A stretch of DNA of 64,000 bases from contig NZ_BAZX01000001.1 in the NCBI RefSeq assembly GCF_001310955.1, positions 248,001 to 312,000 of the forward strand. Direction: 5' to 3'. Position numbers and translations under genes: made by a program. The DNA is from Marinifilum fragile JCM 15579. Lineage in GTDB: Bacteria; Bacteroidota; Bacteroidia; Bacteroidales; Marinifilaceae. Below, piece after piece: positions 3,001 through 38,460 of this stretch. The notes under the pieces were generated by a model. The model had not been told where the DNA came from. It ran no database searches and was given only the letters and a program-made list of their open reading frames with translations. Position 1 is the stretch's first letter; the number at the start of each line of letters is the position of its first letter.

Positions 3001-5682
3001 TGTGAAAAATCTGAAGATGGAATTATTCATGTTACACCGTATGGTGGAAATGATGGTTACACCTATACATGGACTGGTCCGAATGACTACAAATCATATG
3101 AGCAAAATATTGAAAACCTAGTTTCGGGAAAATATGCATTGCAAATTTCTGACAAGAAAAATTGTTCACAAATTGACACAGTAAAATTAGATCTAGGTTT
3201 GAGTCTTCAGCTTGGTGTTGTGGTAGAACAACATGTTGAAATAGCCGGAACAAATCAGGGAATTTTGGCATTGGAATTATTTGAAGGAACAATGCCTTAC
3301 ACTTTTACAGTAACAGGACCAAGTGGAACTTTTAGTAGCCCTGATAATTTTGATGAAAATTATTACTTGATTGAGAATTTGGCAGCAGGAGTTTACAATG
3401 TTGTTGCTACTGATGCATCATCTTGTACGACAGTTGAAAAGTCTGTGATTATTGAAAGTCCCGGACAAGTGTTTGCCTATATTGATCAGGTAAAACCAAT
3501 GGGGTGTGTTGGTTCGTCGGATGGTGAATTGGAAGCGGTTGCTCGTGGAGGATCAGGGACTTATACGTATTCGTGGTCTGGACCATCTGGTTATTCAGGA
3601 AGTGGAAAAAATATATCCGGTTTAGAACCAGGAACTTATTCGCTTTCTGTGAGTGATGGAGGAAGTACTGCAAATGCAACATTTGAGCTTTTACCAGCTG
3701 ATCCTATTATTGTTAGTGTTAAAAATTTTAAAAATGTAAGTTGTTACCAGGCAGCTGATGGACAAATAGAATTATTGGTAGATACTGGTGGTGCAGACTA
3801 TACCGTGGAATGGACCAATGATCTTGGAAAAGGATTTTTATCTTCAGCAAAGAAAATTATGAATCTGGAACCAGGTATCTATACCTATACCATTACAACT
3901 TCAAAAGGATGTTCGGTTTCTGGTAATCAGCAAATTACGGAGCCCATAGTTTTGAATGTTAAGGCTAATTATACAGATATTAGTATTGAAGGGGAGCGTG
4001 ATGGAACTGTTTCAGCAGATTTTGGAGGAGGAACTGCACCATATACGGTATTGATTTCTGGGCCGAAAGGTTATTCTTATGCAGAAGTTGACAATACCTC
4101 AGGAACAATATCGGTGAATGGGCTTGAAATGGGTGTGTACGAAGTTGCCGTAATAGATGCCAATGGTTGTAGAATTGAGGATGTTACGAAAGTGCATGAA
4201 CCTTCAAAATTATTGCTTTATACTTCATCGGTAACACACATCACTTGTCCGGGAGGTACGGAAGGAGCTATTAATCTGGAAGTTGAAGGAGCTAGTGATC
4301 CCGAAAATTTAACTTTTAGTTGGTCGGGTGATAATCATTTTAGGAGTGCCAGCCAGAATATAAACAATTTAAGTGCAGGAACTTATCATGTTAAAGTGTA
4401 TGATTCTGGTGGTGATCCGGGATATGAAGAGCAAACACTATCTGTAATTGTGGAAGAGCCAGATTTACTGGATATTGAGGTGAATACGAAAAACATTTCA
4501 TGTCCGGGAATGAATGATGGATACATTAATATTCAACCAAAAGGCGGAACACCTGGTTATGAGTATGCTTGGACTGGAACTGGTGTTGATGTTAATATGG
4601 AGGATCAGGAAAATTTAGCTCCAGGTCTATATACTGTAAATATCACAGACATAAATGGTTGTAAATCTGAAGATGTTGAAATAGAGATTACTGAGCCGGA
4701 GCGACTTTTGGTTGCGGTTGAGGATAGTAAAGATCCTACATGCTATGGTTTGGAAAACGGTTGGATTCAATTAAATATTAGTAATGGAACAGCGCCTTAT
4801 ATTATCGATTGGGACAACTATGGTAGTGTTACCCAGCGAATTGAGGAATTAACAAGAGGCGTTTATGACTATACTGTTGTTGATGATAACGGGTGTAGCG
4901 AAAGTGGTTCGTTTACTTTAAATCAGCCAGACACATTAATAGCTCAAATTAATGATGTGGATAATGTTGATTGTCACGGTGATGGAACGGGAAGAGCATT
5001 AGTAGAAATAACTGGTGGTACACCTGACTATACAATCCTTTGGTCTGATGGGCAAGATACAGCAGAGGCAACGGATCTTAAACTTGGAAAATATGAAGTG
5101 TCAGTTATTGATGCTCAGGGATGTACAGATGTTTCGGAGGTTGATATATTTGAACCTGAATCATTGGCAATAGAAGTAGAGGTAATTAGGCCAACTACTT
5201 ACGATGCAATGGATGGGGCTATTGGTGTAAATGTATCTGGTGGAGTAAAAGATTATTCATACACTTGGCTCAAGGAAGATATATCCCTAGGATTTACGTC
5301 TCAAACTATTGAAGATATTGACAGAGGTGTATACAAGCTGGAATTGAAAGATGCTAATAATTGTCCGTTGGATACGACAATTGTAGTTGAATATTTATTT
5401 GAACGCAGGATACGCATACCAAAAGCATTTACACCAAATTCAGATGGTTACAACGATTATTGGGATATAGAAAGAATTGAGTTTATCCAAGATCTGAAGA
5501 TCGTGATTTATGATCGTTGGGGTAAGGCTGTGTATAAATTTGCAGGTACTGGAAACGAGTATAAAGGTGAACCATGGAGAGGTAATGATGGCAGTGTAAA
5601 ACTGCCAATTGGATCGTATTATTACGCAGTGGAGGTTGAGGATGAAAAACCAATCATTGGAACAGTAACCATTCTGAGATAG
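1..5682 (+). CDS. Giant SprB-repeat surface protein with type IX secretion C-terminal sorting domain (5' partial)
   Basis: The reading frame is open to the first base, so the N-terminus lies outside the window; 1893 residues are visible. Residues 1-520 are a beta-rich non-repetitive part containing a WTGNG...NWS motif common in Bacteroidota adhesins, followed by an Ig-like stretch (about 575-640). From about residue 672 to 1797 there are roughly 14 repeats of about 80-85 residues. Each opens with a pattern like KCFGxxNGxI and contains a PDYxYxW core, as in SprB repeats. Eleven repeats keep the Cys and three replace it. The last 90 residues (IPKAFTPNSDGYND, YDRWGKAVYKF, LPIGSYYYAVEV) match the gliding-motility-associated C-terminal domain, a type B type IX secretion signal. 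It is probably secreted and surface-anchored with the help of the next gene product. The true length and any N-terminal catalytic domain are unknown. Confidence 0.93.
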   Translation, partial: VSGRSIYINLADENYEQGFEFQTDNSVIRLKDNADIILLGSALNNVSFNEIIFEKGGEFNSGFSGFEVYASHLLFEGDGIIKGKKNSFGTLELARGFEYKLENGRTITTDKLLVDGSCFAPIYLHSTRDGVGNETFLVAKNDVNGNFLELKDIHADISGGIKYIATNSFDLGNTSGWTVDGVIAPIALYWTGNGADDNWNNHENWSRATDGSEEGCVPTINDDVFFTANSFFGSKLVELTADAKCHSMTWNDDIDPDASFSVTAKLQMGGSMDLANSMTLDMQGTFEFIGDGLTDIKNVDFANKNLDGDVRFVGKDQSWIWQTGFVTSGNLEIDEGSVSTQGFDFTVSQFKSLSLHDSDAVRSFDMTNSIVKVTSNNITSWSMIMNTAGGLTFTSTDSYITFENGGGIYCETDGEVRFGFVDFVDNGIINITSGADTEKGYFGSVRFMEEGKIFGNTEFLNLEFTLGYENNTIESGKTVTVVNDLKMEGVRCSYVFLKASTPGVRAILHKPADTFNNIYNASLTDIQGTTGSGAIDHPVKYHYDNDNSIGFAELTDSSGDENPPSFEESFDKPREEWCSDIAVLDHVKGFPINSSTTFQWYYSVDGTAGTYTELVGETNAVIEVNKNGFYKVEVRYGKNTIADDGTDCKIESTIEVALGEVSTVSLEITANNVKCFGQSNGQVIATVKKNATGNYPDYTFFWKAESGKDVDSADDSDNWTSTAFGLEPGKYYVTVADGKKCEFDTIVNVFDAYELLIDNIDTKDLTCYTVHEGEISIDASGGTGSLSYYLNNNLQASKNITGLASGDYKVFVQDGNNCKTTEEDVTINSNPELIVDLNGLDLKCFGDKNGEFTPTVTGGVTDYSYAWTGPDGYSSTDTNISGLAGGLYKLTVTDKVGCTASKDQELNEPTELIAEELVVDDANCHGENSGEIFVVGGQGTPDYRYFLDGVEESTGIFKSLAPENYVLRIVDAHGCIFEKEITVREPNKIGFVIADIVLPSCEKSEDGIIHVTPYGGNDGYTYTWTGPNDYKSYEQNIENLVSGKYALQISDKKNCSQIDTVKLDLGLSLQLGVVVEQHVEIAGTNQGILALELFEGTMPYTFTVTGPSGTFSSPDNFDENYYLIENLAAGVYNVVATDASSCTTVEKSVIIESPGQVFAYIDQVKPMGCVGSSDGELEAVARGGSGTYTYSWSGPSGYSGSGKNISGLEPGTYSLSVSDGGSTANATFELLPADPIIVSVKNFKNVSCYQAADGQIELLVDTGGADYTVEWTNDLGKGFLSSAKKIMNLEPGIYTYTITTSKGCSVSGNQQITEPIVLNVKANYTDISIEGERDGTVSADFGGGTAPYTVLISGPKGYSYAEVDNTSGTISVNGLEMGVYEVAVIDANGCRIEDVTKVHEPSKLLLYTSSVTHITCPGGTEGAINLEVEGASDPENLTFSWSGDNHFRSASQNINNLSAGTYHVKVYDSGGDPGYEEQTLSVIVEEPDLLDIEVNTKNISCPGMNDGYINIQPKGGTPGYEYAWTGTGVDVNMEDQENLAPGLYTVNITDINGCKSEDVEIEITEPERLLVAVEDSKDPTCYGLENGWIQLNISNGTAPYIIDWDNYGSVTQRIEELTRGVYDYTVVDDNGCSESGSFTLNQPDTLIAQINDVDNVDCHGDGTGRALVEITGGTPDYTILWSDGQDTAEATDLKLGKYEVSVIDAQGCTDVSEVDIFEPESLAIEVEVIRPTTYDAMDGAIGVNVSGGVKDYSYTWLKEDISLGFTSQTIEDIDRGVYKLELKDANNCPLDTTIVVEYLFERRIRIPKAFTPNSDGYNDYWDIERIEFIQDLKIVIYDRWGKAVYKFAGTGNEYKGEPWRGNDGSVKLPIGSYYYAVEVEDEKPIIGTVTILR

Positions 5683-36886: not shown

Positions 36887-37450
36887 TTAGTATTTAATTT
36901 GTACCAACTCACTTTTCTCTATCAATTCTTTCAACATTTTCCTTGCTCTGAAAATGTAATTTTTTACCGTTCCAACGGGTAAGCCCGTAATTTCAACAAT
37001 TTCCTTATAGCCCATCTCTTCCAGGTGATACAAACTTAAAACAGTTTTGTACTGCGTGGGCAATTTATCAATCATTTTTCGAAGGTGAAATTTTAATTCA
37101 TTCGATTCTGCAATTTTTTGCGGATGTTCCTCCGTTATCATATCCGAATGTAAAAAATCTTGTTCATTGTCATCAATATTGGTATTGGGCTTTCGTTTTT
37201 TCAAATGATTAATGGTAACCCGGTAAGCAATGGTTGCAATCCATGTTGAAAGCTTCGAATCACCTCGAAATTCTGGCAGTTTCTGATGCACTTTAATAAA
37301 TACCTCCTGGCAGATGTCCTCCAAATCCTCCTGCTGGTTAAGCAAACGTGCCGCAACATGAAATACAAGGCGCTCGTATTGCTTTACCAAAAACCGAAAG
37401 GCCTGTGGACTGCCGTTATTTATCTGATTTATCAGCTCTGTTTCCTTCAT
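36887..37450 (-). CDS. ECF-type RNA polymerase sigma factor
   Basis: 187 residues. Sigma-70 region 2 (YERLVFHVAARLLNQQEDLEDICQEVFIKVHQKL, STWIATIAYRVTINHLKK) and region 4 (YKTVLSLYHLEEMGYKEIVEITGLPVGTVKNYIFRARKMLKE) are both clear, and no region 1 or 3 is present, as expected for the extracytoplasmic-function class. It directs polymerase to a small regulon under control of the downstream membrane protein. A TGCAACCT-N16-GTCTACT element lies directly upstream and a second one precedes the divergent gene at 37814, suggesting autoregulation and one target next door. Confidence 0.95.
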   Translation of the reverse strand: MKETELINQINNGSPQAFRFLVKQYERLVFHVAARLLNQQEDLEDICQEVFIKVHQKLPEFRGDSKLSTWIATIAYRVTINHLKKRKPNTNIDDNEQDFLHSDMITEEHPQKIAESNELKFHLRKMIDKLPTQYKTVLSLYHLEEMGYKEIVEITGLPVGTVKNYIFRARKMLKELIEKSELVQIKY

Positions 37451-37460
37451 CTTCTGTTGC

Positions 37461-37491
37461 AGTAGACAGGCAAGGTAAGAAATAGGTTGCA
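37461..37491 (-). promoter_or_regulatory. Putative ECF sigma-dependent promoter of the sigma operon
   Basis: Minus strand: TGCAACCT (37484-37491), 16 bases, GTCTACT (37461-37467). Only ten bases separate the -10-like element from the ATG, so the transcript would have a very short leader. The same motif with the same spacing occurs at 37748-37778. Confidence 0.7.
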
Positions 37492-37747
37492 GAAAATTTT
37501 AATGTTTTTTGAAGAGCTCTTTCTGGAGCTAATTTTAGACGTATTAATTTGCATGATTTTAATGGGACAAAGAATTAACTATACAATCGTTTAATTTTTA
37601 AAATCTCCCTTAAAAAGGGAAACGTCTATAAAGAAATGTAAGGATTTTAATTGATGATAGAGTGCACTTATATTTGTGTATATGGTTTAGCCATCAGGAG
37701 AAGGGGCTAGGGGATGAGGTAAAAAAAATCAAAAAAATTATTCAAGC
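37492..37747. other. Intergenic stretch with degenerate repeat remnants
   Basis: No gene. It contains a small CTCCCTTAAAAAGGGA hairpin (37605-37620), an exact -7 box TATATTTG (37669-37676, +) and a G-rich piece (GGAGAAGGGGCTAGGGGATG, 37697-37716) that looks like a decayed dispersed repeat. Confidence 0.5.
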
Positions 37748-37778
37748 TGCAACCTTTTTAAAACCATCATGGTCTACT
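37748..37778 (+). promoter_or_regulatory. Putative ECF sigma-dependent promoter of the small membrane protein gene
   Basis: TGCAACCT (37748-37755), 16 bases, GTCTACT (37772-37778), 35 bases before the start at 37814. It is identical in both boxes and spacer length to the element before the sigma gene. Confidence 0.7.
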
Positions 37779-37813
37779 AGGCAAAACAGATTGAAAAACT
37801 TAAAATTTGAAAT

Positions 37814-38182
37814 ATGAATATTGGTGAATTATTAATGGCTGCAGTGGTGTTTTTCGCGATCATCACATTTGTAAAAATATTGTCTTCACATTTTCTAAAA
37901 AGAAAAATTATTAAAACTGGTCATTTCGACCGAGCAGAGATTTTAGATCAAAACACTGAGATAGAAGTGAAAAAACAAGTGCAATACGATCAGTATCCAG
38001 CCTTAAAGTGGGGATTGGTAGCATTTTTTGGCGGACTTGGATTCATCGTATTAGAGTTGCTGGGAGCTTATAATCCTGAGTTTAAAAGTTACAGAAGTGC
38101 AATGCCTTTCGGAATTTTCTTTGTATTTACTTCCATTGGTTTCTTGTTGTACTATGTGATCATGAGCAAAAAAGCGAAATAG
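37814..38182 (+). CDS. Small membrane protein (DUF6249-like), probable target of the neighbouring ECF sigma
   Basis: 122 residues with three predicted membrane helices: an N-terminal anchor (LLMAAVVFFAIITFVKIL), then after a charged loop (FDRAEILDQNTEIEVKKQVQ) two more (WGLVAFFGGLGFIVLELLG, FGIFFVFTSIGFLLYYVIM). The length and layout resemble DUF6249 proteins of Bacteroidota, which often sit near ECF sigma/anti-sigma pairs; this is from memory and not a database hit. The shared promoter-like motif suggests that it is made when the sigma factor is freed. Its function is unknown. Confidence 0.75.
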   Translation: MNIGELLMAAVVFFAIITFVKILSSHFLKRKIIKTGHFDRAEILDQNTEIEVKKQVQYDQYPALKWGLVAFFGGLGFIVLELLGAYNPEFKSYRSAMPFGIFFVFTSIGFLLYYVIMSKKAK

Positions 38183-38292: not shown

Positions 38293-38460
38293 TCGGAGTA
38301 AGATGTTAAGGCGTCGGAGTAGGTATTTACCCCTTCGGAGTAAGCCAAATTGGCATCGGAGTAAGTCTTTACTCCTTCGGAGTAGGCCAAAATGGCATCG
38401 GAGTAAGCGATTTACCCATCGGATTTAAGAATATTGGTATCTGAGTTAACTCACCTTCAA
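38293..38460. repeat. Tandem array of eight 21-bp units
   Basis: Eight consecutive 21-base units, each starting TCGGAGTAAG or a variant. Units alternate between a self-complementary type (GCCAAATTGGCA, GCCAAAATGGCA) and a T-A-C-rich type (TCTTTACTCCT, TATTTACCCCT). The last two units are degraded. An antisense frame reads heptads such as AYSEGVNTYSD, but it has no start context or codon signal that I trust. Confidence 0.92.

Follow-up and report, generated by a model that had tools for sequence, protein, structure and literature searches.

An ECF Sigma Factor and a DUF6249 Membrane Protein with Paired Predicted Promoters in Bacteroidota

Introduction

The ECF sigma factors E. coli sigma-E and B. 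subtilis SigW use promoters with an AAC/GTC-like core and control large envelope-stress regulons, and in B. subtilis the small membrane proteins YhdK and YxlD help an anti-sigma factor. For an ECF41 factor adjacent to a COE gene, the neighbour was reported as the only detected target, with a TGTCACA-n16-CGTC motif before either gene, and it was identified as a target rather than an anti-sigma factor (PMC3426412). Within Bacteroidetes, a survey reported class I anti-sigma domains next to only 6% of ECF factors, and its authors considered that other anti-sigma classes may dominate in this phylum (PMC7406223).

Here, we describe a locus in a 64-kb stretch of DNA from Marinifilum fragile JCM 15579 (the window), in which an ECF sigma gene and a gene for a DUF6249 membrane protein diverge from a common gap. 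A full-text search brought up DUF6249 (PF19762) in a plant context only, and no description of the module was recognised in the literature on Bacteroidota ECF factors and promoter motifs, which was covered mainly through open-access papers and in which the ECF reclassification may define this group.

Results

A Shared Element before Two Divergent Genes

The original prediction held that the two divergent genes share the element TGCAACCT-N16-GTCTACT, i.e., boxes of 8 and 7 bases separated by 16 bases. Both exact copies were found, as were the three implied gene frames: the sigma gene and a 124-aa protein on the minus strand, and the membrane protein on the plus strand (Table 1). The GTCTACT box lies 10 bases from the start codon of the sigma gene and 35 bases from that of the DUF6249 gene. 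The DNA around the two copies had been described as otherwise different, with which we agree by eye; when the gap was compared in related genomes, its length varied between species and both boxes stayed.

Table 1. Features of the locus (window positions)
Feature	Position	Strand	Remarks
Anti-sigma-like membrane protein, 124 aa	36507..36881	-	Second gene of sigma operon, 5 bases after sigma stop
ECF sigma factor, 187 aa	36887..37450	-	Pfam Sigma70_r2 and Sigma70_r4_2 over cut-offs
Sigma operon promoter (predicted)	37461-37491	-	-35 TGCAACCT 37484-37491; -10 GTCTACT 37461-37467
DUF6249 promoter (predicted)	37748-37778	+	-35 TGCAACCT 37748-37755; -10 GTCTACT 37772-37778
DUF6249 membrane protein, 122 aa	37814..38182	+	Pfam PF19762, 34.0 bits vs. 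cut-off 33 (narrow pass)

With up to three mismatches, the pattern occurred six times in the window, compared to a mean of 1.24 in 100 shuffled versions (largest 4). The four matches other than the exact pair had three mismatches each, and none besides that pair had fewer. With up to two mismatches, the whole genome contained seven matches (two exact) and the reversed control 14; thus, there was no excess beyond the two exact copies. Repeats were also seen around the locus. Short CCTCATCC-like stretches, perhaps a small dispersed repeat, recurred in the variable part of the gap (window 37690-37720, and 3338-4001 of the related locus L016), and a 42-base tandem unit with the recurring core TCGGAGTAAG was present in 3.3 copies just downstream of the DUF6249 gene (window 38310-38446).

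Sigma Factor and Its Neighbouring Membrane Proteins

The sigma protein consists of Sigma-70 regions 2 and 4 and little else, exceeds the cut-off of the NCBIfam profile TIGR02937 (sigma70-ECF) and aligns nearly end to end with the solved ECF structures of E. coli sigma-E and B. subtilis SigW. It is 97% identical to the sigma factor of Marinifilum sp. D714. The SigW model was the best named profile, with a score below its curated cut-off (131.6 vs. 209 bits). An AAC-type -35 and a GTC-type -10 box, about 16 bases apart, precede its own gene, as in the ECF class.

The product of the second gene in the sigma operon had been labelled an anti-sigma factor. This label drew support from homologues; the window protein itself matched no anti-sigma profile in Pfam or NCBIfam. 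Iterative profiles joined 114 of 117 proteins encoded after the sigma genes into one family, although the set was small and membrane helices can cause drift in such searches. An HxxxCxxC motif was present in 14 of the 117, all longer members. When 23 family members were scanned with E-values up to 0.05, zf-HC2 was seen in three and RseA_N in three, again longer homologues, and an RseA_N match examined in one homologue was just under the cut-off. Like class I anti-sigma factors, the window protein is encoded beside a sigma gene and appears membrane-bound, as judged from hydrophobic helices seen by eye and from an all-helix, low-confidence model, which was poor and gave no PDB fold match at E 0.001 or better. 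A recognisable N-terminal anti-sigma domain was not found in it. Since this domain occurs in longer homologues, the protein, if an anti-sigma factor at all, would be one of a reduced form; it may act as the anti-sigma factor of the adjacent sigma. This reduced family is a candidate for part of the gap noted in PMC7406223.

For the DUF6249 protein, a model with three long helices was obtained (mean pLDDT 76.4); at this moderate quality, it had no PDB fold match at E 0.001 or better. The loop between helices 1 and 2 contains conserved charged residues. DUF6249 was present in 124 of 395 sampled Bacteroidota genomes. Two loci (L046 and L047) coded for N-terminally extended DUF6249 proteins of approximately 240-250 aa, with a same-strand overlap of 4 bases with the sigma frame. 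Recurrent flanking genes differed by lineage and looked housekeeping, giving no clue to function. One Bacteroides-family module (L126) adjoins acyl-carrier-protein, purN-like and rnhA-like genes.

Conservation in Marinifilaceae and Linkage across the Phylum

Loss of the boxes upstream of orthologous genes had been named as an observation that would speak against the original prediction, and the boxes were retained. In named Marinifilaceae, TGCAAC-N18-GTCTA was found just before the sigma gene in all 12 loci and before the DUF6249 gene in all 11 loci in which this gene was detected. The 12 loci came from a sigma-protein search that yielded 21; the other nine (L028-L036), distant relatives without a DUF6249 match, were left out. 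At the twelfth Marinifilaceae locus (L024), no DUF6249 gene was found within 4 kb of the sigma gene. A transposase-like fragment, recognised by eye, lies just upstream of the sigma promoter at that locus (3676-3942). A close relative of the window DUF6249 protein was found in 7 of the 148 other genomes of the order, and its gene was divergent from an ECF gene in all seven.

Across Bacteroidota, an ECF sigma frame was observed near 117 of 120 DUF6249 loci (107/108 plus 10/12, the latter 12 loci being used for this linkage count only). These were distinct loci over the curated cut-off, excluding the window's own, with fetched flanks of 1.5 or 2.5 kb. Approximately 5% linkage would be expected by chance, based on simple arithmetic for one genome with 42 Sigma70_r2 genes in 4.7 Mb. 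No ECF gene was found in the fetched flank of three loci (L095, L218 and L221), and the upstream neighbour in L095 (region 1552-2857) is, we presume, similar to a head-GIN/DUF2807 protein. Both genes could be placed in 126 loci, including those of the family, the order and the window: 111 were divergent, 15 had both genes on the same strand with DUF6249 first, and none was convergent or sigma-first. Because the latter two layouts never occurred, the two genes are always able to share a control region.

Paired Promoters and the Third -35 Base

To score upstream regions, a two-block matrix was built, with 23 sites of Marinifilaceae as the seed; it was re-estimated on the same 103 divergent loci that it then scored. 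Eight near-identical Marinifilaceae loci had been dropped from the 111, and L070 and L071 were replaced by wider copies (L128 and L138). Scores above 9 bits were obtained for 187 of 206 upstream regions; after first-order Markov shuffling, 2 of 206 reached this level, as did 1 of 103 stretches from locus edges. The phylum consensus reads TGTAACCTtt and then CGTC, and the spacing from TGTAACC to CGTC was usually 16 bases. At a threshold of 6 bits, both promoters were recognised in 89 of the 103 loci; the remaining 14 lacked one or both recognisable promoters, with only that of the sigma gene found in nine, only that of DUF6249 in four and neither in one.

The two promoters of a locus resembled each other. 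The third -35 base was the same in 88 of the 89 loci (permuted mean 64%, maximum 78%), being T in 70, A in 10 and C in 8, with a single A/C locus. The -10 triplet agreed within the locus in 86 of 89 (permuted mean 86%, maximum 92%) and the spacer class in 78 of 89 (70% and 81%, respectively).

Among the columns of the sigma alignment, the most informative on the third -35 base was residue 164, which belongs to the recognition helix of region 4. Val or Ile at this position accompanied T in 71 of 73 cases, Thr or Ala accompanied A in 16 of 18, and Asn or Ser accompanied C in 10 of 11; the window sigma has Asn164, paired with TGCAAC. The residue aligns with a serine of E. coli sigma-E which we take to sit at the -35 DNA. 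Parsimony on a quick tree required only four changes of the base and six of the residue class, and the permutation ignores descent, so that the agreement between base and residue reflects few independent events. A single origin of the module sigmas was examined with a tree of 85 sequences, in which 65 of 118 module sigmas were joined by those 20 of this genome's 40 other sigma genes that scored best. The tree needed three label changes between module and other sigmas, although a single change was also possible. The loci provide a natural series of sigma/promoter pairs for reading the recognition of the -35 element.

The two predicted promoters differed in their distance from the start codon. 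Counted from the -10 box, the sigma start codon was 10-20 bases away in 77 of 96 loci (72 of 96 when the starts were left unrefined), whereas the same range was seen for DUF6249 in only 2 of 91, with quartiles of 35 and 52 bases. These distances predict next to no leader on the sigma message and one of ordinary length on the DUF6249 message, a difference which may keep sigma low and the output high. Leaders shorter than 10 nt were reported at only about 3.7% in B. thetaiotaomicron (PMC7366714).

Size of the Regulon

An exact search for TGTAACC-N16-CGTCNTA yielded 38 matches in 21 Bacteroides-family genomes, all 38 adjoining a DUF6249 gene (reversed control, 4); these were 21 of the 24 genomes of this family with a DUF6249 match, with G240, G463 and G525 left out. 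The exact Marinifilum consensus had 12 matches in 7 of 24 relatives (reversed control, 1). These were at the module, as checked directly for the window's own genome, L038, L215 and L216; three more genomes were placed there by positions equal to L016-L018 and are not independent of the Marinifilaceae count. The strict motif revealed no further conserved regulon member, and the neighbouring gene was the sole conserved target, as in ECF41, under strict patterns that would overlook weaker promoter variants elsewhere. Since the strict matches were at the module only, the arrangement appears to be a closed circuit made up of the sigma factor, the anti-sigma-like protein and one target.

A genome-wide search with spacers of 15-17 bases between the boxes had also been proposed. 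In five genomes of the genus, TGCAAC-N17..19-GTCTA gave 12 matches, nine of which were at the module, and the control gave 14. A larger regulon was rejected: outside the module, relaxed searches of the own genome and the five genus genomes brought up no more matches than expected by chance. The pattern TGCAACHT-N16-GTC had five matches in the own genome (control, 2). A stray match (L007) falls within a response-regulator-like frame.

The same genome contained a second module of DUF6249, sigma and anti-sigma-like genes (L067, contig C3, approximately 67860-69580), with TGTAACC-type sites before both the DUF6249 and sigma genes. Within this genome, neither module's pattern matched at the other module, which suggests that the two may be insulated by promoter specificity. 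A third TGTAACC-N16-CGTC site (L164, 1501-1533; C11:114486) lies directly before the start codon of a gene whose 336-aa product has an HELHH stretch and a signal-like N terminus; this gene may be a further target of the sigma factor of the second module.

Discussion

The original prediction of autoregulation by the ECF factor together with control of the membrane protein is supported, at the level of sequence, by paired and conserved promoters. A two-promoter circuit of the adjacent ECF sigma, taken alone, is highly probable; in it, each pair of boxes would supply the -35 and -10 elements for one of two divergent promoters. The membrane-bound anti-sigma-like protein would release the sigma factor, and the released sigma with RNA polymerase would transcribe its own operon, including the anti-sigma gene (positive autoregulation), as well as the single DUF6249 gene; by motif evidence, there would be no other conserved target. 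We infer the use of these sites by this sigma. As both partner proteins look mostly membrane-embedded, the trigger may be a membrane state. DUF6249 would then most likely be the only dedicated output and would act in the inner membrane; its role as output rather than regulator is likewise our interpretation, and we lean slightly towards the circuit with this output. The word effector, used for it in the original prediction, is a guess.

DUF6249 might instead, in the same circuit, assist the anti-sigma in feedback or sensing, as a co-anti-sigma in a mainly self-regulating loop. Its gene almost always adjoins those for sigma and anti-sigma, no other conserved target was found, the charged residues in the loop between helices 1 and 2 are conserved, and YhdK and YxlD of B. 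subtilis offer a precedent. However, a separate promoter at an ordinary leader distance fits bulk output, and the ECF41 neighbour was reported to have no effect on sigma activity (PMC3426412); we regard a feedback role as possible but rather doubtful.

The remaining alternatives concern the boxes. It is improbable that the promoters, although real, are read by a different ECF factor, with the module as its target. The genome has 42 Sigma70_r2 genes, and ECF promoters resemble one another, but the -35 base changes with a residue of the sigma from the same locus, the two modules of the genome have different -35 boxes, and the matched sites adjoin the module. Nothing specific favours an operator of a separate repressor or activator, a very unlikely reading given that the letters track the sigma protein, the sigma start codon lies at a fixed distance in most loci, and the boxes agree in order, spacing and AAC/GTC core with ECF promoters, such as the TGTCACA-n16-CGTC described for ECF41 (PMC3426412). 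A chance match or local duplication could be imagined from copies 257 bases apart, but it is refuted by conservation of position in the family and of a related form in the phylum, and we give it practically no weight.

Returning to the circuit with DUF6249 as output, a broader picture can be drawn tentatively, and it is unlikely to hold in all its parts: a widespread closed circuit, in contrast to the customary large stress regulons, in which three parts (sigma, a reduced membrane anti-sigma and the three-helix DUF6249 protein) sense and correct the state of the inner membrane, DUF6249 serves as both output and feedback signal, a nearly leaderless sigma message limits runaway autoactivation, and one -35 base with one sigma residue keeps copies private. 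The module gives DUF6249 its first genetic context and would represent a minimal sigma circuit testable in tractable laboratory Bacteroides.

Several known systems are comparable. RpoE/SigW types are sequence relatives with solved structures and a membrane-anchored anti-sigma factor; the module differs from them in that no further conserved site was found with strict patterns. Dma/Das (ECF21) of Bacteroides is likewise a Bacteroidota ECF factor beside its own membrane anti-sigma, but the latter is described with a long tether and a C-terminal beta-barrel (PMC13088901), neither of which was seen in the 124-aa window protein with its all-helical model. For SigW-1 (BT1817) and BT1816 of B. thetaiotaomicron, sigma expression was reported to group with that of the adjacent transmembrane protein; this system differs in its proposed control of sulfatase genes and in that no significant promoter motif was reported (PMC12596196). 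Nearest in its described logic is ECF41, which resembles the module in its sole neighbouring target, divergent or target-first layouts and bipartite promoter, and differs in having no nearby anti-sigma gene, a large regulatory C-terminal extension and an enzyme partner (PMC3426412). The module has neither this extension nor this absence of an anti-sigma-like gene; it combines a bare 187-aa sigma with an anti-sigma-like membrane protein and a membrane partner.
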